Assembly (NCBI GenBank): GCA_937136425.1
Contig: CAKZON010000070.1
Location: forward strand, 124,001 to 188,000
Reading direction: 5' to 3'
DNA length: 64,000 nt
Origin: an uncultured Crocinitomix sp.
GTDB taxonomy: Bacteria > Bacteroidota > Bacteroidia > Flavobacteriales_D > Crocinitomicaceae
The notes beneath the pieces were generated by a model. It was not told the DNA's origin, did no database searches, and saw only the letters and a program-made list of their open reading frames with translations. Each line of letters opens with the position of its first letter. Within the stretch, counting starts at the first letter, position 1. Positions 1 through 12,911 of the stretch are shown one piece after another. The translations under genes were made by a program, and so were the position numbers.

Positions 1-1743
1 AGAATTAATCCAAGTAACAATATTTCATTCAACACCTTATTTGTAAACAATTCTAGCGACGAAGTAAGAGAAACTTGGGGAGATCATTTTGATTACGCAC
101 GTAGTATTTATTCTCGCAGATTAACTTATCAACAAAACTACATGGCAGTGAACCAAATTATTGGTACACATCAATTACTTCCTTTTGTTGAGGATTCTTC
201 ATTATCTCGTTTAACAGTTGATTGGAGAGGATCATATAGCGCAACTGGAAGTCAAGAACCTGACAGAAAACAATTTGTTGCATTTTATGATGAGGATCAA
301 AAAGACAATACTGAGCATTATGCAATCAACTATATTGACCGAAATGAAAACCACATTTTTCATAGTAAATTAAAAGAAAATGAAGTTGCTGCAAAAATTA
401 ATGCTCGCTATGTCTTAAAATTTGGTGATGTATTAAACAAAAAGCAAGACACAATTGCTGGAGAATTAATCACCTTAAAAGTTGGGGCAGATTATAAAAA
501 GAAATCTAGAATATTTGACTACAAACAATTTAACTATGTGTTAAATGCACTTGCAGGTAATATTGGAGATAATTTAGATATCTACAATATGGATTCATAT
601 TTAAACTCAACCATGCATGACGAGGGACAATTCAATATTTCAGAAGTGGCCAACTTTGGATCTTCATACTTGGCGCAATTAGATGTTGTTAGTTTTTATA
701 CTGACATTAAATTCAAATTGAACAAATGGCAATTGATTCCGGGTATTCGCTATGAAAGCGGTGCACAAACAGTTGAAAACAGAAATCAACAAAGCCCTTC
801 AAGCTATGAAAAAACAATTTTATTAAGTGACGCCTTTTTGCCAAGTTTAATTACACGTTTTGATGCAAATCAAAACAACGTATTCAGATTTGTTGCTAGT
901 AAAACATTAACAAGACCTAAATTTAATGAAGTTGCTCCATTTCAATATGTACTCTATTTTGCAGGTGCAAAAGCTCAAGGAAATACTCAATTGCAAAATG
1001 GCATAAATTATAATGCTGATTTCAGGTATGAGCACTATGGTAAACCAGGTGAATTATTCTCAATTGGTGCGTTTTATAAATATCTTGATAATCCAATTGA
1101 GCAAACCATGCGTGCAACGGCGAGTGGTCAATTAATGAGCTTTGCAAATGCAAATGCTGCAAATGTTGCTGGAGCTGAAATTGAGTATATGAGAAGCCTT
1201 AACTTTCTTGTGCGTGATTCTGCCAGAAGAGACACTTCTTTCTTAAATGATTTGAATGTAGGTTTCAACGCGACTTATATGTACACTTCAGTAATGATTG
1301 ATACAACAGACCCCGGAGCAATTAACACTAACAGTGTTCGTCCACTTGAAGGAGCTTCACCTTATTTGGTAAACTTTGACTTAAGCTACCAAACAACTAA
1401 AGGAGAAAAAGGAAATAGAAAAACTTATTTAGCTGCCTTATCTTATAATGTTTTTGGCCCAAGATTATTTGCTGTTGGAAGTAATGGAATCGGTGATCAA
1501 TATGAACGCCCAATTAACACATTAAACTTTGTCAGCAAAATCACATTTAATGACACTTATTCATTTGGATTAAAAGCTAAAAACTTATTAAACCCTACTA
1601 TTAATATTGTTCAAGAGAACATGGTTAATCCTGCTGAAACATTATTCGTATCAAGTTTCAGACGCGGAATTGATTTGAGCTTATCATTTAGTTATAACAT
1701 TCCTGTTTCAAAAAAGAATAAAAAGAAAAAGGAAATAGAATAA
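1..1743 (+). CDS. TonB-dependent receptor, C-terminal part (5' truncated by window)
   Basis: Outer-membrane beta-barrel receptor for TonB-energised uptake. The reading frame is open from base 1, so the Met at 142 is only an internal codon and the plug domain lies outside the window. About 580 residues remain, rich in alternating aromatic/polar strands such as RFVASKTLTRPKFNEVAPF and SIGAFYKYLDNPIEQ, and ending in a typical last strand (LSLSFSYNIPV) followed by a basic tail. The family is clear; the substrate is not visible. The next gene encodes a beta-helix lipoprotein with a Pho-box-like repeat upstream, which makes a phosphorus-containing substrate a reasonable inference. A strong hairpin terminator follows the stop. 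Confidence 0.9.
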   Translation, partial: RINPSNNISFNTLFVNNSSDEVRETWGDHFDYARSIYSRRLTYQQNYMAVNQIIGTHQLLPFVEDSSLSRLTVDWRGSYSATGSQEPDRKQFVAFYDEDQKDNTEHYAINYIDRNENHIFHSKLKENEVAAKINARYVLKFGDVLNKKQDTIAGELITLKVGADYKKKSRIFDYKQFNYVLNALAGNIGDNLDIYNMDSYLNSTMHDEGQFNISEVANFGSSYLAQLDVVSFYTDIKFKLNKWQLIPGIRYESGAQTVENRNQQSPSSYEKTILLSDAFLPSLITRFDANQNNVFRFVASKTLTRPKFNEVAPFQYVLYFAGAKAQGNTQLQNGINYNADFRYEHYGKPGELFSIGAFYKYLDNPIEQTMRATASGQLMSFANANAANVAGAEIEYMRSLNFLVRDSARRDTSFLNDLNVGFNATYMYTSVMIDTTDPGAINTNSVRPLEGASPYLVNFDLSYQTTKGEKGNRKTYLAALSYNVFGPRLFAVGSNGIGDQYERPINTLNFVSKITFNDTYSFGLKAKNLLNPTINIVQENMVNPAETLFVSSFRRGIDLSLSFSYNIPVSKKNKKKKEIE

Positions 1744-1818: not shown

Positions 1819-1906
1819 TTAACTCAATGTAAAATACGATTAACTTTTATTTAACACAACGGTAATGCCAGCATAATTACGGCGGAGAAAGTTGTGCTGA
1901 TATTTG
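1819..1906 (+). promoter_or_regulatory. Pho-box-like direct repeat and weak -7 element upstream of the lipoprotein gene
   Basis: TTAAC occurs at 1840-1844 and 1851-1855, separated by six bases (11-bp period), with another TTAAC at 1819-1823. A one-mismatch -7 element (GATATTTG, 1899-1906) lies 43 bases after the repeat. The same repeat sits upstream of other genes in the first 10.5 kb. Binding by the response regulator at 6117-6803 is inference. Confidence 0.5.
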
Positions 1907-1934
1907 TACCATCAAATTAGAAAAACAAAAAGAA

Positions 1935-3284
1935 ATGAAAAATACAAAATCAACATTCAAAATGATGCTTCTTGCAGGAGCTCTAGTTGCAGTTTTACCT
2001 GCATGTAAGAAAAAAGGATGTACAGATCCAGATGCCACTAACTACAGTTCAGAAGCTAAAAAAGATGATGGTTCTTGTGAGTATGCTACATCAACATGGT
2101 TTACTGAAGTTACTATAGGTGGAGTTGTTTATAAACAAGTATCTGGACACATTACAGAAGACCAAACTATGGCAGCATCTGACAACTGGATTCTTTCTGG
2201 TGGTGTATTTGTTGACAATGGCGCAACATTAACGATTGAGGCTGGAACAACTGTTAACGCTGCTGATGATGGAACAACTCCATTTTTAGCTGTAGCACAA
2301 GGTGGTAAATTAATGGCTTGTGGAACAGCAGACTCACCAATCATTTTTACACCAATTGCTGACGCTCCTAGCGCTGGTGCTTGGGGAGGAATTATCTTAA
2401 ATGGATATGCTCCTATCAACACTGGATCAACTGCAGAAGGTGAAGGTGGAACTGGAACTTATGGTGGTGATAACGCTGCTGATAATTCTGGGACATTATG
2501 CTATGTTCGTGTAGAATATGCTGGAAAAATTTTAGGAACTGATAATGAGTTAAACGGATTTTCATTCAACGGTTGTGGATCAGGAACAACACTTCACCAC
2601 TTACAAGCTTATAAAGGAAGTGATGATGGATTCGAATTTTTCGGTGGAACAGTATCATTAAAATATGCAATCTCTTCAGGTAATCAAGATGATTCATTTG
2701 ACTGGACACACGGATGGTCAGGAAATGGTCAATTCTGGGTTGTTGAGCAAAATGCTGAAGGTGGAGATCGTGGAATTGAGGCAGACAACAATGGAGACAA
2801 CAATGAAGCAAATCCTTACTCTAATCCAAACATTGCTAACGTAACATTAGTTGGTGTTGATGATGGTGATGCATCTAACCAAGGAATTAAATTAAGAGAA
2901 GGTACAAAAGGAAACTTCATGAACTTCGCAATTACTGGATTTCCTAAAAGAGGATGCCAAGTTGAGCATGACGTAACATTAGGAAATATGGACGGTGGTT
3001 CATTAACACTAAAAAATTCAATCATTGATAATGTAAGCCCATTCGTATTTACAACTTCTGCTGGTGAAGATGCTACAGGAATTGCAAACTTTGAAGACGG
3101 TGCAAACAACAACGCAACTGCAACTGATGGTTCATTAGTAGGATTCTTAACAGGATATGTTGGAACTACTGCAACTGGAGCTGGTGACCCAACTGCTTGG
3201 GGTACTTGGTTTGACAATGCAAATTATGTAGGTGCTGTTAGTTCAGGATCTGACTGGACAGCTGGTTGGACATTAGGACTATAG
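1935..3284 (+). CDS. Beta-helix surface lipoprotein, TonB-receptor partner
   Basis: A 449-aa predicted lipoprotein: signal peptide with lipobox LPAC (Cys24), then a short Asp/Cys-rich module GCTDPDATNYSSEAKKDDGS (residues ~28-47) of a kind common in Bacteroidota exported proteins. The rest is a repetitive beta-rich domain (ILSGGVFVDNGATLTIEAGT, GAWGGIILNGYAPI) that reads as a right-handed parallel beta-helix. No catalytic motif was recognised. It follows a TonB receptor but has its own promoter region with a Pho-box-like repeat. I infer that it helps capture a ligand for the receptor, perhaps under phosphate limitation; a structural or adhesive role is also possible. Confidence 0.75.
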   Translation: MKNTKSTFKMMLLAGALVAVLPACKKKGCTDPDATNYSSEAKKDDGSCEYATSTWFTEVTIGGVVYKQVSGHITEDQTMAASDNWILSGGVFVDNGATLTIEAGTTVNAADDGTTPFLAVAQGGKLMACGTADSPIIFTPIADAPSAGAWGGIILNGYAPINTGSTAEGEGGTGTYGGDNAADNSGTLCYVRVEYAGKILGTDNELNGFSFNGCGSGTTLHHLQAYKGSDDGFEFFGGTVSLKYAISSGNQDDSFDWTHGWSGNGQFWVVEQNAEGGDRGIEADNNGDNNEANPYSNPNIANVTLVGVDDGDASNQGIKLREGTKGNFMNFAITGFPKRGCQVEHDVTLGNMDGGSLTLKNSIIDNVSPFVFTTSAGEDATGIANFEDGANNNATATDGSLVGFLTGYVGTTATGAGDPTAWGTWFDNANYVGAVSSGSDWTAGWTLGL

Positions 3285-3306
3285 TTCAATAACGATTTTC
3301 GAAAGA

Positions 3307-3339
3307 AAAAGGGTTTCGGTTAGCCGAGACCCTTTTCAT
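3307..3339 (+). terminator. Rho-independent terminator of the lipoprotein gene
   Basis: A 13-bp stem (AAAAGGGTTTCGG with CCGAGACCCTTTT, one G-U pair) with a 4-nt loop lies 22 bases after the stop codon. Confidence 0.85.
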
Positions 3340-3354
3340 GTTTTATAGCAAACT

Positions 3355-3390
3355 AAAAATGCATTTTACCTATTGGCGAAATGCATTTTT
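3355..3390 (-). terminator. Terminator facing the TetR gene (bidirectional)
   Basis: A perfect 12-bp A/T-flanked stem (AAAAATGCATTT with AAATGCATTTTT) works in both directions and lies 28 bases past the 3' end of the TetR-family gene. Confidence 0.7.
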
Positions 3391-3418
3391 AATTAAATCT
3401 ATAATGTCTTGATTGATT

Positions 3419-4030
3419 CTATAATTCTAAAAACTTTTCTTTTCCCTTTTTGGTAAGATACGGATAGAATGACTGCATAAAGCTGTCAGTATAAATGCGC
3501 GAGTGTTTTAGCATTACGTCTTCTGTGGTTGTCCCAACTGAAGCAATCCAAAAATCACCAAATAACTGCGCTCTTTTATACAAGTAATCATATTCATTTG
3601 GAAGTTCTTCCTCACGCATTTCGCCATTTTCAACTAAGTTTTCCACCAAGCGTTTAATAAAAGCGAGGCGCTTAGTACTTAAAGCAGTATAATGCTTTTT
3701 AATTTTACGATTAGATCTTATAACCTGCATAAAATCAATCATAAAAAATTTGTTCTCAAAAAGAATTTTGTTGGTAGCTTTGGTTAGTTCTGCTAACCCA
3801 TTCAAGCTCAATTCAGATTTTTCAGCCAATTCCAATTGCACTTCAATCGCTTCAGCTAATTCAAAGTAGAGTGCGTCAATTATATCATCTCTCTTTTTAA
3901 AATGATAAGTTAAATTTCCTGGACTTATTGCGATATGATCGCAAATTGTACGTTGACTCACTTTTGCCACCCCATGCTCATTAAACAGCACGCGTGCAGC
4001 TCTCAAAATTTTTTGATTAGTACCACTCAT
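3419..4030 (-). CDS. TetR/AcrR-family transcriptional regulator
   Basis: A 203-aa protein with an N-terminal TetR-type helix-turn-helix (residues ~5-55: ILRAARVLFNEHGVAKVSQR, then ISPGNLTYHFKKRDDI) and an all-helical ligand-binding half. The length is normal for the family. ATG at 4030 is the only reasonable start and lies five bases after a TAAATTTG element that is embedded in a perfect inverted repeat (4040-4079). Autorepression is therefore likely. The divergent neighbour is a TPR/SpoIIE phosphatase gene, a possible second target. The ligand is unknown. Confidence 0.88.
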   Translation of the reverse strand: MSGTNQKILRAARVLFNEHGVAKVSQRTICDHIAISPGNLTYHFKKRDDIIDALYFELAEAIEVQLELAEKSELSLNGLAELTKATNKILFENKFFMIDFMQVIRSNRKIKKHYTALSTKRLAFIKRLVENLVENGEMREEELPNEYDYLYKRAQLFGDFWIASVGTTTEDVMLKHSRIYTDSFMQSFYPYLTKKGKEKFLEL

Positions 4031-4035
4031 ACTTC

Positions 4036-4079
4036 CAAATTTATAAAATTTTAGTGCTCTTACACTAAAATTTTATAAA
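4036..4079 (-). promoter_or_regulatory. Perfect 17-bp inverted repeat (operator) overlapping the tetR promoter
   Basis: The left arm TTTATAAAATTTTAGTG (4040-4056) and the right arm (4063-4079) are exact reverse complements around a 6-bp spacer. The minus-strand -7 element TAAATTTG (4043-4036) overlaps the left arm by four bases, so a protein bound to the palindrome would block RNA polymerase. This fits an autoregulatory TetR operator, which would also lie ~130 bp upstream of the divergent gene at 4213. Confidence 0.75.
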
Positions 4080-4212
4080 CAGAGAATGGTTAAAATCAGT
4101 GTAATTAGAAAAATTATTGTTTGTGAATAGTAGTTAGAATTCGATTGTTCGTCGAATAAACTCAGTTATTCTCAATTAAATCGGTAGATTTAGAATAACA
4201 TAAAAATGGTGT

Positions 4213-6111
4213 GTGAGCATAGTACCTATTAATAATATCAAATCAATTGATCCTGCAAATTTTGAAAAAAAGAAGCAAGAGATAGAAGAATTGATTACTT
4301 ATTGCTACACCAACAAAGTTCGTTTTTGGAAATTATGTAAACAAAAGGCACGTGAAGCGCTCACCTTGTCAGAACACATTAATTACGAAGAAGGTAAAGG
4401 AGTAGCCTTACTTGAACTTGGATATCAAAATTGGTTTAGAGATAACCTTACTATGGCCCATGTTCAACTAGCACAGAGTTGCGCCATATTAAAATCAAGC
4501 AATAATGAGTTTATGTTTGCCAGAGCCACAGCTGTTCGGGCATCCATTTATTGGACCAAAGGCGATCGTAATAAATCCATCTCCCTTGTTTTTGAGGCCT
4601 TACGAATTATTGGAGCCAATAATAAAGACGCCTTATGGTTAGAATGGTTTTTAGGAATTTTTTATTTTGATTTACAAGATTATAAAAATTCAGAATTTCA
4701 ATACTCAAAGGCATTGGCTATTATTAAATCTTCAAAAAGAGAGACGCCAGATGCATATGCATATTGTGTTATAGGATTAGGCGGGGTATTAATGAAAACT
4801 GGGCGCCAAAAACAAGCACTAGAAAATTTTGTAAGTGCATTGTTGTTTTGCCGAAAAAACGGGCTTTGGATGCAAGAAGCGCGCGTTTTGCATGAGCTAG
4901 GACTCTATTTTGAAGCAAATGACGACATTGATAAAGCATTAAATTATTATAGAGAAAGCTACATCATTAGGAATAAACAACAAACTAAACCAGCACTAAT
5001 AACAAGCCTGCTCTCTCTTGCTCGCGTAACTGCAATCAATGACAATAACGCTGCAATTACTTTAGCATTAAAAGCACTTAAATTATCCGAGTCAATTGAC
5101 TCAATTCCTAAGCGAATGGCTTGCCATAAAATACTGTCAAACTTCCAAAAAACAACAGGAAACTTTAAACAATCACACATACATATAGATGAGGTTGAAA
5201 AATTGCGAAATAAACTCACGGGAAACAATGCAAACGCGAGCATAAAAAATCTTGAAAAGGAATTTATTGAAGAGTTGTTTAAACGCGAGCGCGATTCATT
5301 GTCAATGCAAAATACTGAGTTGGAACGTGCCAATCAAATCATAAAATCGCAGTACAATGAAATTGCGGATAGCATTAATTATGCTAAAAAAATTCAAAAC
5401 GCCATATTACCAACGCTGGATCTCATTAAAAAACACCTTCCTGATTCATTTTTAATATACGAGCCTAAGGCAGGAGTTTCTGGAGATTTTTATTGGCTAG
5501 ATCCTATTGACGAAGACCATGTTTTATTTGCTGTCGCAGATTGCACTGGACATGGAGTGCCAGGAGCCATGACAAGTATGTTATGCATTGGCGCTTTAAA
5601 TAGAGCCGTGCGAGAATTTAAGCTAAAAGAACCTGGAGCAATTTTAGACAAAACACGTCACATAGTAATTAGTGACTTTGACAAAAGCAATGACGAACTG
5701 CATGACGGCATGGATATTTCACTTTGTTTGCTGAATACAAAAACACTTGTATTAGAATGGGCTGGTGCTTTTAACCCGCTCTGGATAATAAGGCATGAAA
5801 CAAAGGAAGTAGAACATTATTTCCCCGACAAACAACCCATAGGGAATTATCCTACCTATACTGATTTTACCACAAATACAATCCAATTAAACCAAGGCGA
5901 TCAATTATTTATTTTTTCAGATGGCTATGCAGATCAATTTGGCGGTGAGAAGAATAAAAAGTACACCTCTAAACGCTTTAAAGATTTAATTCAGGTAAAT
6001 GCTCAATTTCCTGTGCAAGTTCAAAAAGAAGTAATCCTAACGACTTTTAATGACTGGAAAGGTAACAATGATCAGATAGACGATATTTGTTTACTAGGTG
6101 TAAAGGTTTAG
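4213..6111 (+). CDS. TPR-repeat SpoIIE-family (PP2C-type) serine phosphatase
   Basis: A 632-aa cytoplasmic signalling protein. Residues ~1-340 form tandem TPR helices, ~345-395 a heptad-rich linker (LERANQIIKSQYNEIADSIN), and ~400-632 a SpoIIE/PP2C phosphatase with the metal-site motifs VSGDFYW, VADCTGHGVPGA, FSDGYADQFGG and a final QIDDICLLGVKV. No signal peptide or membrane segment is seen. The start is GTG at 4213: a stop lies in frame at 4201 and no ATG is available. Such proteins usually act in partner-switching or stress signalling; the partner is not visible here. Its 3' end is five bases from the convergent response-regulator gene. Confidence 0.88.
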   Translation: MSIVPINNIKSIDPANFEKKKQEIEELITYCYTNKVRFWKLCKQKAREALTLSEHINYEEGKGVALLELGYQNWFRDNLTMAHVQLAQSCAILKSSNNEFMFARATAVRASIYWTKGDRNKSISLVFEALRIIGANNKDALWLEWFLGIFYFDLQDYKNSEFQYSKALAIIKSSKRETPDAYAYCVIGLGGVLMKTGRQKQALENFVSALLFCRKNGLWMQEARVLHELGLYFEANDDIDKALNYYRESYIIRNKQQTKPALITSLLSLARVTAINDNNAAITLALKALKLSESIDSIPKRMACHKILSNFQKTTGNFKQSHIHIDEVEKLRNKLTGNNANASIKNLEKEFIEELFKRERDSLSMQNTELERANQIIKSQYNEIADSINYAKKIQNAILPTLDLIKKHLPDSFLIYEPKAGVSGDFYWLDPIDEDHVLFAVADCTGHGVPGAMTSMLCIGALNRAVREFKLKEPGAILDKTRHIVISDFDKSNDELHDGMDISLCLLNTKTLVLEWAGAFNPLWIIRHETKEVEHYFPDKQPIGNYPTYTDFTTNTIQLNQGDQLFIFSDGYADQFGGEKNKKYTSKRFKDLIQVNAQFPVQVQKEVILTTFNDWKGNNDQIDDICLLGVKV

Positions 6112-6116
6112 CGGAA

Positions 6117-6803
6117 CTATTCTTCAAATTTATAGCCTACCCCTTTAACCGTAACAATATGCGTATCACCAATTTTTTCTCTTAGTTTTCGAATATGAAC
6201 ATCAATTGTTCTGTCACCGACTACAACGTCAGCACCCCAAACGCTATTCATAATTACGTCTCTATGAAACACCTTAGATGGTTTTGACATCAGCAACGCT
6301 AGTAATTCAAACTCTTTACGTGGTAAGAACATTTCATTTCCTTCTTTAGAAATTAAATAGCGTTCTCGGTCAATTGTTATTGACTTCTCTTTATTGTCTG
6401 TTGAATCATTATTAACATCAGTGCCAGCAGCTCCTTTCCTTCTTAGAATGGCTGATATTCTACTAACTAATAATTTTGGTTTGATTGGTTTTGTAATATA
6501 GTCGTCAGCGCCAGCTTCAAACCCTGCAATTTGCGAATAATCTTCGCCTCTAGCAGTTAAAAAACAAATCATAGTATGCTTCAAACCTGGAATTGCGTTA
6601 AGCTTTTCACAGGTTTCAATTCCATCCATTCCTGGCATCATAACATCCAATAAAATTAAATCGGGAACCTGCTGCACAGCCATTTCCAATCCTTTTTCTC
6701 CATTCGCTGCTTCTGAAACAACAAATCCTTCTTTTTCCAAATTGTATTTAATCAATACACGGATATCTTGCTCATCATCAATAACCAATATAGAACTGCT
6801 CAT
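6117..6803 (-). CDS. OmpR/PhoB-family response regulator (probable PhoB)
   Basis: A 228-aa two-domain regulator. The receiver (residues 1-120) has acidic D9/D10, phosphoacceptor D53 (LILLDVMMPGMDG), T83 and K105 (ITKP). The C-terminal winged helix contains FLPRKEFELLALL and RTIDVHIRKLREKIG. It binds DNA as a phosphorylation-controlled activator. No histidine kinase is adjacent, so it is an orphan in this window. A three-fold 11-bp repeat (TTAAA/TTAAC/TTATC, 6869-6895) lies upstream, matching boxes near the phosphate transport genes around it. PhoB identity and autoregulation are inferred from that context, not from residues unique to PhoB. Confidence 0.9.
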   Translation of the reverse strand: MSSSILVIDDEQDIRVLIKYNLEKEGFVVSEAANGEKGLEMAVQQVPDLILLDVMMPGMDGIETCEKLNAIPGLKHTMICFLTARGEDYSQIAGFEAGADDYITKPIKPKLLVSRISAILRRKGAAGTDVNNDSTDNKEKSITIDRERYLISKEGNEMFLPRKEFELLALLMSKPSKVFHRDVIMNSVWGADVVVGDRTIDVHIRKLREKIGDTHIVTVKGVGYKFEE

Positions 6804-6823
6804 GTTTACTCTTAATTTTTTAT

Positions 6824-6895
6824 TAAAGGTACGTTTTTATTGCGGTGTATTCTACGCCGTAATTAATAGATAACGTTAAGTTAACACGAATTTAA
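6824..6895 (-). promoter_or_regulatory. Pho-box-like triple repeat upstream of the response regulator
   Basis: On the minus strand TTAAA (6895-6891), TTAAC (6884-6880) and TTATC (6873-6869) are each separated by six bases. A -7-like TACCTTTA lies at 6831-6824. Only the middle unit is exact, so this is weaker than the other boxes. Confidence 0.45.
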
Positions 6896-6934
6896 TGGAC
6901 CGCAAAACTTGATCAGAACAAATTGAGTTTTGTT

Positions 6935-7570
6935 CTACTTCCAAAATTTCCACCATTTAAGTTTCTTTATCTTTTCTGTTTGAGCGGAATATTTAATTTC
7001 TTTTTTGGAATTTAAAGTTTCTATTGTTTTGGAGGACGACAGTTTTGCTCCGCCTTCATTTTTTATTTCTTTTGTACTTGAAAAAGCAGTGTCATGTCCG
7101 CCAATGCGAATTACCCTATCGCCGTGCATTAAAATTCCGCAACCATGTTCAGGATCCCATTCGCAATTTCCAAAATACCCAGTATAGGCTATTCCATCTT
7201 TTGCGTATAACCTAACGCATAGTGCGTCAATGGTCAATTGTTTATGAACATCCATTTTACCTTTAAATTCATCCAAATAATCAGGGAAATCATCTTCTCT
7301 ATTGGCATACCCCAGCAAAACTGCCTTTTGATTATTCAAAATGTAGTCCGTAATGGATTCAAATATAGCCGCTTGGTTTTCGACAAAATAATCCAAAGCT
7401 TTTTGCTGCTCTTCTGTAGGTACTTTTCTTTCCTCGTCAAGCTCTGTATCAACAGTAATGCCTAGCCAATTTTCCCAAATTTCATTCGGATTAACTGGTT
7501 GATTTGAAAATATATGTTCTGTATAAAGTTCGTAGGGCTCGCTATCACTGAAATCAATCTGATAATTCAT
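6935..7570 (-). CDS. Hypothetical protein, 211 aa
   Basis: I do not recognise the family with confidence. The protein is acidic and soluble, without signal peptide or membrane segments. Residues ~1-90 are helical and acidic. A central block (YTGYFGNCEWDPEHGCGILM, ~135-155, then DRVIRIGGHDTAF) looks like a small beta domain of the DUF6985 kind, an assignment from memory only. The C-terminus is basic and low-complexity, ending KKLKWWKFWK. It lies on the same strand as the ChrA gene, which ends 51 bases upstream of its start, so read-through from that promoter is possible. Confidence 0.6.
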   Translation of the reverse strand: MNYQIDFSDSEPYELYTEHIFSNQPVNPNEIWENWLGITVDTELDEERKVPTEEQQKALDYFVENQAAIFESITDYILNNQKAVLLGYANREDDFPDYLDEFKGKMDVHKQLTIDALCVRLYAKDGIAYTGYFGNCEWDPEHGCGILMHGDRVIRIGGHDTAFSSTKEIKNEGGAKLSSSKTIETLNSKKEIKYSAQTEKIKKLKWWKFWK

Positions 7571-7621
7571 AGATTAAAGCTAACACAAAATTACCAAACA
7601 GACATTCAACAATGCTTGTGA

Positions 7622-8788
7622 TTAGATCATCAACAATAAGTATCCTAGAATGGCTCCACCTAGAACAATCCAAATTGGGTTTGATTTTTTAAGCCCGAAT
7701 ACTAAACCAAATGCAAGCGCTGCAATTATTGCACTGCGCCAATCAAAAATCCACTGTCCATCTGTGTAGTTAAGAATAGTTTCTCTCGCCATTTCAAACA
7801 GAACGACCAACATTACAGCAACCGCAGCAATATTAACCGCATCTAAAAAATAACGCAACATTGGCGATTTTCTCATGCGTGGAATTAGCGGATTTAGGAT
7901 TAATACAAATAGGAATGATGGTAAAAAGATTCCAGCAGTTGCGCCAATTGCTCCCCAAAATCCAGACATTTGATAACCAATAAAGGTTGCTGTGCTCAAA
8001 ACAGGTCCTGGAGTAAATTGTCCCACTGCAATTGCATCAATTAATTCTTCCAAGGTTAAGTATCCAGTGTCAACAAGTTCTGCTTGCAAATAAGCAAAAA
8101 GCACATAACCACTTCCATAAAGAATGGCCCCAACTTTTAAAAAGGTCCAGAAAACAGTTGCAGAAGTAATGGCTGCAGAAGCGGGTGCAGAACTTCCCAC
8201 TAATAAAAATGGCAACCAAGACTTTGTCTCCTTTTTGTCTGACGAAATTCCATTTTTAGCTTTAAAGTAAAGCATACCGGTAATACCTGCAGTTAATAAT
8301 GCAATTACCTCATGCACACCAAGAAAACAAGCCACAATTACTAAGGCACCTATTACTCCCAATTCAGTGCTTTTAAGCGCCTTTTTTCCTAGTTTGAAAA
8401 TTGCTCCAGCAATAATTGCTAAAACAGCTGGTTTAATTCCGTATACAAAACCCTCTACCTCCGGCAACGCACCGTAAGTGACATAAAGCCACGCTAAAAC
8501 ACCTGTAATAACAACTGCTGGAAACACGAAACAAATACCAGCAACAAATAATCCTAATTTTCCTGCACGCTCATGTCCACAATGCATGGTCATTTCAGTT
8601 GAATTTGGACCAGGAATTAAGTTAGTTGCCCCCATCAAGTCCAAAAAATATTGTCGATCCATCCATTTACGCTTATTCACCACTTCTTCCTCCATCATGG
8701 CAACATGCGCCGCTGGTCCACCAAACGCAAAGCAACCAAGCTTAAAAAATACAATCGCTACTTCTTTTAATTTTTCTGATTGTGACAT
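7622..8788 (-). CDS. chrA: ChrA-family chromate/anion transporter, two-domain form
   Basis: A 388-aa polytopic membrane protein with two homologous CHR halves. The first carries FFKLGCFAFGGPAAHVAMME and NLIPGPNSTEMTMHCGHERA; the second carries GYLTLEELIDAIAVGQFTPG and GYQMSGFWGAIGATAGIF. The family classically exports chromate with proton coupling, but many members have no known substrate. No chromate-resistance gene (chrB, chrF) is nearby. Instead an exact TTAAC-N6-TTAAC repeat and a perfect TATTTTTG -7 element lie upstream, and the flanking genes are phosphate-related. A role in handling another oxyanion during phosphate limitation is inference. Confidence 0.88.
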   Translation of the reverse strand: MSQSEKLKEVAIVFFKLGCFAFGGPAAHVAMMEEEVVNKRKWMDRQYFLDLMGATNLIPGPNSTEMTMHCGHERAGKLGLFVAGICFVFPAVVITGVLAWLYVTYGALPEVEGFVYGIKPAVLAIIAGAIFKLGKKALKSTELGVIGALVIVACFLGVHEVIALLTAGITGMLYFKAKNGISSDKKETKSWLPFLLVGSSAPASAAITSATVFWTFLKVGAILYGSGYVLFAYLQAELVDTGYLTLEELIDAIAVGQFTPGPVLSTATFIGYQMSGFWGAIGATAGIFLPSFLFVLILNPLIPRMRKSPMLRYFLDAVNIAAVAVMLVVLFEMARETILNYTDGQWIFDWRSAIIAALAFGLVFGLKKSNPIWIVLGGAILGYLLLMI

Positions 8789-8801
8789 ATTTTATTTTTT
8801 T

Positions 8802-8847
8802 CAAAAATATCCTGTACTCCTTAATTCTATGTTAACCTAATGTTAAC
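8802..8847 (-). promoter_or_regulatory. Pho-box-like repeat and -7 promoter element of the ChrA gene
   Basis: Two GTTAAC palindromes at 8831-8836 and 8842-8847 give a TTAAC-N6-TTAAC repeat on either strand. On the minus strand a perfect TAnnTTTG element (TATTTTTG, 8809-8802) lies 21 bases after it and 13 bases before the ATG, so the expected 5' leader is only about eight bases. No gene in the other direction could use this box. Confidence 0.6.
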
Positions 8848-8870
8848 AATCTAGAGAAGGTATTTGTTCC

Positions 8871-8906
8871 ATAAAAAATACCACTTCAGCCTGCCAAAGT
8901 GGTATT
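8871..8906 (-). terminator. Rho-independent terminator of the porin gene
   Basis: A perfect 10-bp stem (AATACCACTT with AAGTGGTATT) and a 10-nt loop is followed on the minus strand by six T, 25 bases past the porin stop codon. Confidence 0.85.
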
Positions 8907-8931
8907 CATTTAATCTTAATTTGTTTCTACC

Positions 8932-10173
8932 TTAAAAGTGGATATCCATTTGTAATCTCCAAAATAGAATATCATCTTTTCCACCATTTGGAGCCGTGCT
9001 ATTAGCAAAGCCTTTCTCTCTATAACTTAAATCTGTTTGCACTTTTAATTTGTGACCTACAAAGTATTTTGAAAGACCTAATGTGTATTCTGTTTCGTTA
9101 TTACTTACACCAACCTCAGGTGTAATCATTGTGTAACGGCCAGTCACCTCAACATTGTTTTTGAACATCCAACCTGCTTGAACATTTAAACCTGTCCCTA
9201 CATAGTAAGTTCCTACAACTAAAGATGTATCTACATTATCATAAACATTGATTTCACCATCAGCTGTTGTTTTGTTAGCATATTCCGCCATGATTGAAAG
9301 TCCTTTATACTTGAACATTAAATCTGCAAATACAGTGTTCAATGTTTTTGCGTTACCGTAAGAACCATCTTCATTATAAATGAAACTACCACCTTGGCCG
9401 CGCTCTCTTGCTGCACGATCATTAATATCATAAGTAAATCCTAAAGCCAATTTTGGTTTTTCTTCGCGCTTGATAGCTGCTCCAACATAGTCTCCTTTTG
9501 ACTGAAATTTACCAAATGGCAACATTTCAACTCTGAATGTATAATCATACCCACCAATATTGTCAGCAGTTAAATTTCTTCCTTCACCCTGCGTTAATGC
9601 AGCTACTTCTTTTACAATAAAATTATTTCCAATTTTAAAGTGGTGCTTTAATTGAACTCCCATATCACGATCGATATTGAAACGACTGTTTAAACGAGAA
9701 CGATCAACCAATTGCAAGTTTGCTGAAGAGATAACACGCTCTCTGTTCCCAGGTAATTTAGCTTGTCCGGCTTTTAAAGAAAAGTTTCCATAAAAATTCC
9801 AATCTACAAAGGCATCTAAAATGAAACGCGGCGCATTATTATGCTCAGAATCGATTCCTCCACCAATGTCTCTATTGGTTAAACCAAACTCCATTTTATA
9901 TTTTAATTTTGGTGTAAACGCGTATCCATCAAACTTAAACCTTGATCGTCTAATTAAAAAATTACTTGATAAATCTTCTACATAACCAAAGTCATCATTT
10001 CTAACATCCCAGTTCGCTGCCATTAAGGTTTGAAATCGTACTCCAAAACGCATTGTAAAAGTTGAATCTTTACCAACTATGTTAATTCCTTTCCCAAATT
10101 TTTTAGGATTGTACTGTGCTGACACTCCTTGTGCAATCAACAATAAGACAAATACAGGTACTAATTTTTTCAT
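8932..10173 (-). CDS. Phosphate-selective porin O/P-like outer-membrane protein
   Basis: A 413-aa protein with a signal peptide cleaved near GVSA|Q (residue ~20) and a beta-barrel that looks like the OprO/OprP family: SLKAGQAKLPGNRERVISSA and MGVQLKHHFKIGNNF in the middle, and a final strand DILFWRLQMDIHF ending in Phe, as outer-membrane porins do. It would let phosphate or polyphosphate cross the outer membrane. It is divergent from the Na/Pi symporter gene across a 308-bp region with several TTAAC repeats, which supports joint control. Substrate selectivity cannot be judged by eye; some members of this family are general anion porins. Confidence 0.85.
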   Translation of the reverse strand: MKKLVPVFVLLLIAQGVSAQYNPKKFGKGINIVGKDSTFTMRFGVRFQTLMAANWDVRNDDFGYVEDLSSNFLIRRSRFKFDGYAFTPKLKYKMEFGLTNRDIGGGIDSEHNNAPRFILDAFVDWNFYGNFSLKAGQAKLPGNRERVISSANLQLVDRSRLNSRFNIDRDMGVQLKHHFKIGNNFIVKEVAALTQGEGRNLTADNIGGYDYTFRVEMLPFGKFQSKGDYVGAAIKREEKPKLALGFTYDINDRAARERGQGGSFIYNEDGSYGNAKTLNTVFADLMFKYKGLSIMAEYANKTTADGEINVYDNVDTSLVVGTYYVGTGLNVQAGWMFKNNVEVTGRYTMITPEVGVSNNETEYTLGLSKYFVGHKLKVQTDLSYREKGFANSTAPNGGKDDILFWRLQMDIHF

Positions 10174-10481
10174 TTCTTTTTTATTTGTTCAATGGCAGTT
10201 ATCCTGCCGATTAAATTCGGGACAAAGATTATATTTTATTAACATATATTTTACATTCATGATCTAAGCTTAACTATTTCTTAACATTGAATGAAAGTGA
10301 ATGAAGATTACCTACTTCTATAATCCCTATAGAGTATAGCTTAACTAACAGATCGACACATCTGCTTAAATCTATTGTTAACTAATTGGTGTGATTTCTT
10401 AACATAAGCTTAACATACAAAAAATACATAAGCTAAGGCTTTGACCTACTTTTGACCAAAATTTTAAATCAAATCATTAAA
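10174..10481. promoter_or_regulatory. Divergent porin / Na-Pi symporter control region with repeated TTAAC boxes
   Basis: This 308-bp gap holds several TTAAC units: 10239 paired with TTTAC at 10250, exact TTAAC-N6-TTAAC at 10270/10281 and at 10399/10410, and single units at 10341 and 10378. The 10399-10414 pair lies 32 bases before a perfect -7 element TACTTTTG (10447-10454) aimed at the symporter. For the porin a possible TAATCTTTG (10230-10222, minus) is present, but which repeat serves it is unclear. Confidence 0.6.
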
Positions 10482-12911
10482 ATGAAAAAATTTATCTCAG
10501 TCGTTGGACTCTTTCTTTTCGCAATAGGATTCGCCTTTGCAGAAGAACCAGTAATCGCTCCAGAAGAATTGGAAGCGGGAATGGATTCTATCGTTGAAAC
10601 TCAAATTCAAGCTCAGGCATTAAGTGCTGTTGGATTTGATTATGAATTTAAAAACGATAAAGATTCCTTGACATTAAAGCCATTTAAAACGGGTACTGCA
10701 ACCTTAACATGGGAGCAAGTTGGAAATGGATCTAATGTATCATTCAATTACCGCCCAATTGGAGAAGCGGCATGGACAACAGTTAACGTTTCAGGTGAGA
10801 CAAAGGAATTAAAATTAAATGATTTAGATGAAAACCTCATTTTTGAATTTAATTTCACTGCTGCTGGAACAAGTGTTCCTGAAAACGGAAATGGCAATTT
10901 CAATACGTTATCAGAATCTTTATTTAAAAACAACTCTGCAAAAGGAAAAGAAGAAGCATTTGAGGTTTCTTGGGCTATAGAGCACGATAAGTTAAACGAA
11001 ATCTTATCCGTTTATCCAGATGCAAGCTTTGTAATCAAATACAACACTAAAATTGGTGCTAAGCAAAATAAAGCTGACGAAAATAAAGCACCTTGGACTA
11101 AGATTGAAGACATTTCAATAAACTCTGTTAAGGAAAAGATTGCAGAACTTTCTGGTGGAGAAAATTATGTTTATAAAGTTGGTATGCACGCTGACGAAAA
11201 AACTTTTTGGTCTAAAAAGGGAAAAGTTAAAACAGAAAGAACTTGGGGTATTTTTAAACTATTAGTTCTTATTGGTGCCTTAGGAATGTTCATCTTTGGT
11301 ATGAAGATTATGAGTGAAGGTTTGCAAAAAGCAGCTGGATCTCGATTAAGAAACATGTTAGGGTCTATTACATCAAACAGAGTTTCTGGTGTATTAACTG
11401 GTTTCGGAATCACATCAATTGTACAATCCTCATCCGTTACGACGGTAATGACTGTAAGCTTTGTAAATGCTGGGTTATTAACATTAAGACAATCTGCAGG
11501 TGTAATGATGGGTGCTAACATTGGTACTACAATTACTGCTTGGTTAATTCTTGTTTTCGGATTTAAAGTAAGTTTAGGATCTTATGCATTAATCTTTATT
11601 GCATTTGGAGCTCCATTATTATTCTTTACAAAAGGAAAAGCTAAAACTTGGGCAAGTGTAATCATTGGTTTTGCACTCTTGTTTATGGGATTAGGTGAAT
11701 TGAAACACTCTGTACCTTCTTTAGGCGCTGATTCATCAATTGTACAATTCTTTATTGACTTTAAAGATGCTTGGTATGGTCCTGTAATGTTTGTTGCATT
11801 AGGAGCATTAGTAACTGTTGTTATTCAATCATCATCTGCTGCAATGGCCTTAACTATGACATTGGTTGCTGGAGGTGTAATTCCATTCGAAGTTGCATCA
11901 GCAATGATTTTAGGAGAAAACATTGGAACAACTATTACTGCAGAGTTAGCATCATTAATTGGTAATGTACATGCAAAGCGTTCAGCAAGAATTCACTCTT
12001 TGTTTAACATCATTGGGGTTACTTGGGCCATCTTATTGTTCCCACTTATCTTAAAAGCGATTGCATCATTTATTGAAGGTGATCCTTATACAGATGGTAA
12101 TGCTGCCAACTTAGGTTTAGCAATTTTCCACTCTGCATTTAACTTGTTAAACGTATTAATCTTATTACCATTTGTTCCATGGTTGGTTCGTATGGCTGAG
12201 AAGACAGTAAAATCTAAAGGAACTGCTGATGAAGAATTCCATTTAGATTATATCGGATCTGGAATGATGGGAACTCCTGACTTATCTATTTTCGAAGCGA
12301 AAAAAGAGGTTGCTAAATTTGGTGAATTGACTAGTAGAATGTCAGGATTCACTCAAAGTTTATTGACTGAACAAAACAAAAAAGTAAAAACGAAGCTACA
12401 TGATAAAGTAGCGAAATACGAAGAGATTACTGATAGAGTTGAGATTGAAGTTGCTACTTATTTAGCAAAAGTTTCAGAAGGTGAAATGTCTGAAGAAACT
12501 GCAGAACGCGTTCGTTCAATGAACAGTATTGTAAACGACCTTGAGCGAATTGGGGATATCTTCTATCAAATGTCAAAAGCGATTGAGCGTAAGGATGAGC
12601 AAAAGATTTGGTTTATTCCTGAGCAACGTGAAAGCTTGAAAGAAATGCTTGAATTAGTTGATGCAGCATTTACTATTATGGTTGAGAACTTAAATTCTGA
12701 TTGGGCAGGTGTATCAATTGATCCAGCCAACGCAGCAGAAAATGCGATCAACAAAAAACGTGATGAAATGCGTGCTGAGCATCTACAAAATCTAGGGAAA
12801 TCTGATTTCAATATGCAAAGTGGAATGATCTTTAGCAACTTATTCTCTTCATGTGAGAAAGTTGGTGACCATATCATTAACGTTACTGAAGCAATTACAG
12901 GAAAAATCTAA
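10482..12911 (+). CDS. Na/Pi cotransporter with N-terminal extracytoplasmic domain and PhoU-like tail
   Basis: ATG at 10482 is preferred over TTG at 10452 because it begins a clean signal peptide (MKKFISVVGLFLFAIGFAFA) and lies past the -7 element. The product is 809 aa: about 220 residues of beta-rich, fibronectin-like extracytoplasmic sequence, then a membrane domain from ~250 with two inverted NptA/PF02690 repeats (SIVQSSSVTTVM...GANIGTTITA and VVIQSSSAAMALTM...GENIGTTITA), then a helical PhoU-like cytoplasmic domain (~600-809). It imports phosphate with sodium across the inner membrane. The large N-terminal exported domain is uncommon for the family. A Pho-box-like repeat precedes the gene. 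Confidence 0.92.
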   Translation: MKKFISVVGLFLFAIGFAFAEEPVIAPEELEAGMDSIVETQIQAQALSAVGFDYEFKNDKDSLTLKPFKTGTATLTWEQVGNGSNVSFNYRPIGEAAWTTVNVSGETKELKLNDLDENLIFEFNFTAAGTSVPENGNGNFNTLSESLFKNNSAKGKEEAFEVSWAIEHDKLNEILSVYPDASFVIKYNTKIGAKQNKADENKAPWTKIEDISINSVKEKIAELSGGENYVYKVGMHADEKTFWSKKGKVKTERTWGIFKLLVLIGALGMFIFGMKIMSEGLQKAAGSRLRNMLGSITSNRVSGVLTGFGITSIVQSSSVTTVMTVSFVNAGLLTLRQSAGVMMGANIGTTITAWLILVFGFKVSLGSYALIFIAFGAPLLFFTKGKAKTWASVIIGFALLFMGLGELKHSVPSLGADSSIVQFFIDFKDAWYGPVMFVALGALVTVVIQSSSAAMALTMTLVAGGVIPFEVASAMILGENIGTTITAELASLIGNVHAKRSARIHSLFNIIGVTWAILLFPLILKAIASFIEGDPYTDGNAANLGLAIFHSAFNLLNVLILLPFVPWLVRMAEKTVKSKGTADEEFHLDYIGSGMMGTPDLSIFEAKKEVAKFGELTSRMSGFTQSLLTEQNKKVKTKLHDKVAKYEEITDRVEIEVATYLAKVSEGEMSEETAERVRSMNSIVNDLERIGDIFYQMSKAIERKDEQKIWFIPEQRESLKEMLELVDAAFTIMVENLNSDWAGVSIDPANAAENAINKKRDEMRAEHLQNLGKSDFNMQSGMIFSNLFSSCEKVGDHIINVTEAITGKI

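Follow-up and report, generated by a model that had tools for sequence, protein, structure and literature searches.

A Direct-Repeat Box in Helical Register with the Promoter as a Probable PHO Box of Bacteroidia, Found in the Phosphate Island of an Uncultured Crocinitomix

The genome of an uncultured Crocinitomix sp. (assembly GCA_937136425.1, G000 below; 6.09 Mb in 122 contigs) carries a phosphate island in which several genes are preceded by a direct-repeat box, TTAAC-N6-TTAAC, whose nature is addressed here. The island lies in a stretch of 64,000 nucleotides (contig CAKZON010000070.1, or C70, positions 124,001 to 188,000), which is referred to as the window and to which all coordinates without a contig name apply. 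On the plus strand, a Na/Pi symporter with a C-terminal PhoU domain (10482..12911; PF02690 and PF01895) exceeds the cut-offs of NF037997 (174.9 vs. 50) and TIGR00704 (225.7 vs. 210.1), and its PhoU domain is the sole match to that domain in the genome. The start codon of the symporter was picked to lie after the promoter element described below, and its N-terminal part is long, with approximately 265 residues ahead of the transport domain. The minus strand encodes a Porin_O_P outer-membrane porin (8932..10173; PF07396, 33.2 bits), a ChrA protein of the CHR transporter family, for which transport is predicted (7622..8788; TIGR00937, 296.2 bits vs. a cut-off of 171.7), and an orphan PhoB-like response regulator of the OmpR family (6117..6803), which is the best match to NF053854 in the genome. 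Further to the left on the plus strand are a lipoprotein gene (1935..3284) and the 3′ part of a gene for a TonB-dependent receptor (142..1743, from an internal ATG). The lipoprotein is predicted to form a parallel beta-helix (predicted local distance difference test 68.4, predicted template modelling score 0.71); its fold search yielded only weak matches, none of them reaching E 0.001, and the top ones were beta-helix proteins. The receptor gene starts outside the window, its full open reading frame (ORF) being L044:10771-13743, or G000:C70:122771-125743 (TIGR01782, 118.4 bits, below cut-off). Crocinitomix and other Crocinitomicaceae are the main sources of the related loci. Of 30 symporter loci, 19 also contain a relative of the regulator (at least 50% identity), 20 contain the porin (45% identity or higher), and 10 contain ChrA, and the order of these three genes varies.

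Exact TTAAC-N6-TTAAC pairs are found at four distinct sites in the window, starting at 1840, 8832, 10270, and 10399 on the plus strand, as described in the initial annotation; a fifth row of the scan, at 8831 on the minus strand, is the 8832 site seen from the opposite strand. Shuffled versions of the window contained 0.43 pairs on average and none of 100 shuffles reached five, which bears out the excess claimed for the window. The symporter-proximal box, TTAACATAAGCTTAACATACAA (10399..10420, plus strand), has a score of 24.5 with the weight matrix described below and lies 32 nt from the −7 element TACTTTTG (10447..10454, plus strand), and TANTTTTG is similarly distant in many orthologues; spacing is given here from the end of the box to the −7 element TANNTTTG. 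A distal box, TTAACTATTTCTTAACATTGAA (10270..10291, plus strand; score 20.4), is located in the same porin/symporter intergenic region, and boxes also occur approximately 160–220 nt ahead of the symporter in loci L067, L069, L070, and L072. This box is oriented to the symporter rather than the porin, for which the intergenic sequence, read by eye, contains neither a box in its own orientation nor a good in-phase −7 element, and the five transcription units originally counted would therefore be one too many. The ChrA box, TTAACATTAGGTTAACATAGAA (8825..8846, minus strand), has a score of 25.9, the highest among the exact boxes scored genome-wide, and lies 21 nt from the −7 element TATTTTTG (8802..8809, minus strand; G000:C70:132802-132846); exact boxes at ChrA are also present in L067, L069, and L072. 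A weaker box, with an exact 5-mer pair and a score of just 12.4, precedes the lipoprotein (1840..1861, plus strand), 43 nt before the imperfect −7 element GATATTTG (1899-1906, plus strand). The distances of 21, 32, and 43 nt previously noted are thus correct, those of ChrA and the symporter referring to an exact TANNTTTG and that of the lipoprotein requiring one mismatch. The array that had been noticed ahead of the regulator gene (6858..6895, minus strand) is indeed present at 11-bp steps, with four units read by eye on the strand of the gene from 6895 down to 6858 (TTAAA / TTAAC / TTATC / TTACG), but it is degenerate and weak, with a score below 9 on that strand and of 13.9 for an overlapping plus-strand reading.

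Across the genome, the exact pair gave 53 rows, compared to approximately 41 expected by scaling from the window shuffles, and the pattern read backwards gave 129. A classification of 56 rows, among them those of the window and with overlapping loci counted twice, placed 39 in intergenic and 17 in genic sequence. Since the bare pair is near chance genome-wide, the argument from its rarity in the window is not extendable to the genome, and the genome-wide count was dropped as an argument. A genome scan had been suggested as a check, with equal abundance upstream of unrelated genes as the refuting outcome; this outcome applies to the bare 5-mer pair, which non-phosphate genes also have, and not to the longer 22-mer motif introduced next.

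The box is conserved and is associated with phosphate genes, as judged by tests running from genes to boxes. Upstream regions of symporter orthologues contain a box with at least 9 of 10 core bases (best 16-mer) in 28 of 29 cases, 13 of them exact, compared to 20 (3 exact) among 187 other upstream regions taken from these loci and from the left flank. L096 was excluded from the orthologues (<45% identity), and two of the 28 matches (L092 and L093), which lie close to the start codon on the opposite strand, are unlikely to function. For genes of DUF47 (PhoU_div), a phosphate family that is not related to the symporter, the box was found in 22/30 Bacteroidia loci vs. 11/70 other genes (Fisher, 4.6e-8), and a phased box with an exact −7 element in 8/30 vs. 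0/70; this test covered 30 of 42 matches, with L380 entered as a miss because the wrong ORF was taken. Among 30 loci with homologues of the lipoprotein, that of the window included, 19 have a box that matches at least 9 of the 10 core positions. The consensus of 45 phosphate-gene boxes is the 22-mer TTAACATTannC-TTAACATTgnA, and a weight matrix was built from 44 boxes of other genomes, with L067 left out of training. Among the exact boxes scored genome-wide, the matrix ranks the ChrA, symporter-proximal, and distal boxes as the top three, and the next score is 18.1. The ChrA score is the most independent because ChrA upstream regions are absent from the training set.

The distance between box and promoter is quantised. 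The pattern TTAAY-N6-TTAAC followed by TANNTTTG within 16-46 nt was scanned for in 36 related genomes, and spacings of 20-22, 31-33, or 42-44 nt were defined as in phase. It gave 117 matches, of which 78 are in phase, compared to 34 expected; the in-phase matches precede a gene start in 64/78 cases and the out-of-phase ones in 17/39. After clustering of homologous targets, 48/84 are in phase (p 7e-8). A stricter pattern was then applied to 149 genomes of Bacteroidia, the class to which both the organism of the window and Bacteroides fragilis belong, giving 205 matches vs. 108 for the pattern read backwards. Among the matches listed and new, 114/141 are in phase, with 41 expected; these 141 of the 205 matches exclude nine rows (eight of G000 and one of G043) that duplicate the first set and retain nested double matches, which were removed in a count of one match per genome (63/75 in phase). 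The steps of 11, or one helical turn, that had been noticed at three genes therefore hold far beyond the window. In control scans, an N8 spacer in the same 36 genomes gave 32 matches vs. 117 for N6 (133 for N8 read backwards), and a permuted word gave eight matches in the 149 genomes, of which 4/8 are in phase, too few for use in the spacing analysis. A third unit at offset 11 is present in few promoters of the 32-nt class (5/29 and 7/31), and a unit at offset 21 is present in 13/27 Bacteroidia promoters of the 43-nt class, so that hidden extra units in register account for some of the quantisation but not for the whole of it. As regards a −33/−35 element, the place of which a PHO box would take, TTG at any single gap of 16-25 nt before the −7 element occurs in at most 4/45 promoters of the 22- and 32-nt classes and at most 3/32 of the 43-nt class, counts that have no control set.

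Three features that characterise a PHO box were thus found: two or more head-to-tail units with an 11-bp period, a location upstream of phosphate-acquisition genes more often than of other genes, and a placement in register just upstream of a promoter element. On this sequence evidence, we consider it quite probable that the sites are PHO boxes of the PhoB/PhoP direct-repeat kind, in a Bacteroidia form kept in phase with the promoter by whole helical turns. The earlier proposal that the repeat is the PHO box of this lineage has good support from the orthologue and DUF47 tests and from the longer 22-mer; the bare 5-mer pair is unspecific. Binding, activation, the phosphate signal, and the identity of the regulator are what we infer beyond this. 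The unit would be the 11-mer TTAACATTnnC, repeated head to tail, and a PhoB-like response regulator, active at phosphate scarcity, would bind an array of at least two tandem units and recruit RNA polymerase to the −7 element. Because the unit is approximately one helical turn long and the array is in register, the best pair could occupy any of three positions, at two, three, or four turns ahead of the promoter (21-22, 32-33, or 43-44 nt), facing the polymerase from each of them. Within the window, such an array would drive the symporter and ChrA, making ChrA a probable member of the regulon as judged from its box, and it would probably drive the lipoprotein together with the TonB receptor and perhaps the regulator gene itself.

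Several observations weigh against this interpretation. The exact pair is near chance genome-wide, and in the 36 related genomes the pattern of box and promoter exceeds its backward reading by a small margin (117 vs. 93), which leaves the spacing and the gene tests to carry the case. The N8 control is itself mildly phased (15/32, p 0.02) and is not a fully clean one. The symporter score is partly circular because orthologues from the genus trained the matrix, and the boxes of the lipoprotein and, on its own strand, of the regulator score poorly. The classical test genes are missing, as no PstB (best 156.5 vs. a cut-off of 343.2) and no PhoR exceeded its cut-off in the genome. Moreover, the OprP porin of a comparable Flavobacterium johnsoniae cluster is not induced by depletion of inorganic phosphate (Pi), according to the available text (PMC8115612). 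Finally, in-phase boxes in the class precede DUF1573 genes (11/58) and MoxR-type genes (3/58), so that this lattice of sites may serve more than a single regulator.

That the 6117 regulator binds the box, as the initial annotation inferred, is only plausible. Its scores are below both NCBIfam PhoB cut-offs (NF053854, 211.6 vs. 270; TIGR02154, 205.8 vs. 296.2), and a second orphan PhoB-like paralogue is encoded at C70:121929-122570, 1.4 kb to the left of the window. It is possible, though less likely than not, that the sites are PHO boxes for which this second paralogue, or both paralogues, matter rather than the 6117 protein. The gene of the second paralogue is divergent from that of the TonB receptor, and between the two lie an 11-bp array (TCAAC / TTAAC / TTATG) and a minus-strand box with a score of 15.5; the recognition regions of the two paralogues are very similar, and the arrangement resembles that of Fjoh_0544-0546 in F. 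johnsoniae (PMC8115612). The 6117 protein is, however, closer to the PhoB family (211 vs. 171 bits), and its relatives accompany the symporter in 19 of the 30 loci. Neither paralogue gene is adjoined by a kinase ORF among the flanking ORFs checked. Among seven other OmpR-type regulators, four have a kinase-like neighbour by motif scan, two more are located beside kinase matches, and the seventh lacks such a neighbour. An orphan histidine kinase is the genome's best PhoR-like match, at G000:C87:19391-20110 (L391; 221.1 bits vs. a cut-off of 334.2), and the 3.7 kb read around it contains no response regulator gene; this kinase is a candidate partner of the two orphan regulators.

The box could also be a general operator of OmpR-family regulators in Bacteroidia, used mainly by another regulator such as the orthologue of Riemerella ‘PhoP’, with the phosphate genes being some of its targets. 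We regard this as unlikely, although the breadth of targets is in its favour. From the 114 in-phase class matches, 60 were sampled non-randomly with 20 per spacing class, by which the 42-44 class was over-sampled, and 58 gave a downstream ORF. The Pfam matches of these 58 comprise DUF1573 (11), DUF47 (4), PHO4 (3), Na/Pi (3), MoxR-type AAA_3 (3), response regulators (2), BipA (2), one PstC-like protein, and one Porin_O_P; the DUF47, PHO4, Na/Pi, PstC-like, and Porin_O_P genes speak for the PHO-box interpretation, and the DUF1573, MoxR-type, and BipA genes for a general operator. The in-phase targets in the relatives, 30 of which were scanned with Pfam, include the symporter, ChrA, PhoB-like regulators, a secreted-looking endonuclease/phosphatase (PF19580), a metallophosphatase, and an acyltransferase, as well as PIG-L, YceI, and further genes without a clear phosphate link. 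The PhoP of Riemerella anatipestifer, from the same phylum, has the core motif TTTAACA in DNA affinity purification sequencing, is autoregulated, and binds moxR in electrophoretic mobility shift assays (EMSA), and differs in its 583 peaks and in that the directly regulated genes are mostly non-phosphate, as far as the available text goes (PMC9603813); it may be a sister regulator. On the other hand, the phosphate boxes have the longer consensus TTAACATTannC, and the top-scoring boxes of the genome are located in the phosphate island. Furthermore, a C precedes the second unit in 6/11 phosphate sites, compared to 0/3 MoxR and 0/11 DUF1573-labelled sites, and all three MoxR boxes have a T before the second core. 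These small counts are indicative, since the groups were labelled by hand and partly by eye, L276 and L278 of the DUF1573 group having no DUF1573 hit and others being labelled by sequence likeness. Probably, at least two sister regulators share the lattice. DUF1573-type genes of the class (L280, L281, L287, L289, and others) follow TTAAC pairs at a spacing of 43 nt to the −7 element, and an extra unit at offset 21 is frequent.

Chance sites in AT-rich intergenic DNA, with the quantised spacing reflecting an ordinary A/T periodicity of 10-11 bp, are very improbable: the exact pair near its genome expectation, the modest ratio to backward matches in the relatives, and the mild phasing with N8 would fit them, and the symporter-orthologue and DUF47 tests, the sharp spacing peaks in two genome sets, the ratio of N6 to N8 matches, and the 205 class matches compared to 108 backwards and 8 for the permuted word speak against them.

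Beyond the PHO-box interpretation itself, a wider proposal could be made, to which we give chances just short of even. A single 11-bp TTAAC lattice, in helical register with the TANNTTTG promoter, may serve throughout the Bacteroidia as a platform for several OmpR-family regulators, which would discriminate mainly by the bases flanking the core (C for phosphate, T for MoxR, and A for DUF1573), and distances of two, three, or four turns may be interchangeable for activation. The CHR ‘chromate’ transporter would then be a conserved phosphate-starvation transporter, as has been suggested in cyanobacteria. ChrA is tied to phosphate in picocyanobacteria (PMC7522525), and a ChrA mutant of Synechococcus PCC 7002 shows 64% of wild-type growth under P deficiency (PMC11358556), in the available text of both sources. 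Since cyanobacterial ChrA is linked to phosphate, a CHR transporter in a phosphate island is no oddity of this genome. Other genes with in-phase boxes have arrangements of their own. In PIG-L-type genes of four genomes of the genus (L215 by Pfam; L183, L190, and L221 by likeness), box and −7 element are separated by exactly 21 nt. YceI-type genes (L209, G000:C19:110288-110344, by Pfam; L184 and L219 by sequence likeness) have an in-phase box that is followed, before the −7 element, by a palindrome, for example TTAGATGTTTAAACATCTAA, that looks like a second operator. Within the window, two further genes are located beside the orphan regulator: a TPR-SpoIIE phosphatase (4213-6111) and a TetR-type gene (3419-4030), which has a relative close to the regulator in L071 and L079; no box was seen for either.

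TTAACA-like repeats spaced 11 bp apart, as here, also make up the PhoP box of Bacillus subtilis, whose Gram-positive promoter context is different. The PHO box of Escherichia coli is similar in that PhoB binds direct repeats of 11-bp units in tandem (PMC4415409), whereas its unit is CTGTCAT plus four bases rather than TTAACATTnnC, and it is located 10 bp upstream of the −10 element (PMC1906773) rather than two, three, or four turns from TANNTTTG. The SphR Pho box of cyanobacteria consists of CTTAACCT 8-mers with a 3-bp linker, which gives the same 11-bp period, and belongs to another phylum and another promoter type; the available text describes no spacing quantum for it (PMC1906773). The island also resembles the phoBR cluster of F. 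johnsoniae, in which the neighbours of phoB are a TonB receptor gene and genes for a beta-helix-type lipoprotein and an OprP-type porin, with the difference that a PhoR gene is inside the cluster. On Pi depletion, phoB is induced, and the TonB receptor of the phoBR cluster and its beta-helix-type lipoprotein FII are strongly induced; the available text names no PHO box or motif (PMC8115612). The PhoB of B. fragilis shifts a pstC promoter fragment in EMSA, its target being a pst operon, unlike here, and no box sequence was found in the available text (PMC3547664).

In the accessible parts of the literature searched, outside of which most subscription journals lie, no PHO box sequence described for Bacteroidota was found. 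A box combined with a promoter-spacing rule would make phosphate regulons readable from the genomes of the whole phylum, and the rule predicts new regulon members such as ChrA. Moreover, the spacing of two, three, or four turns would constitute a clean natural test of the placement of an activator relative to the unusual Bacteroidota promoter.

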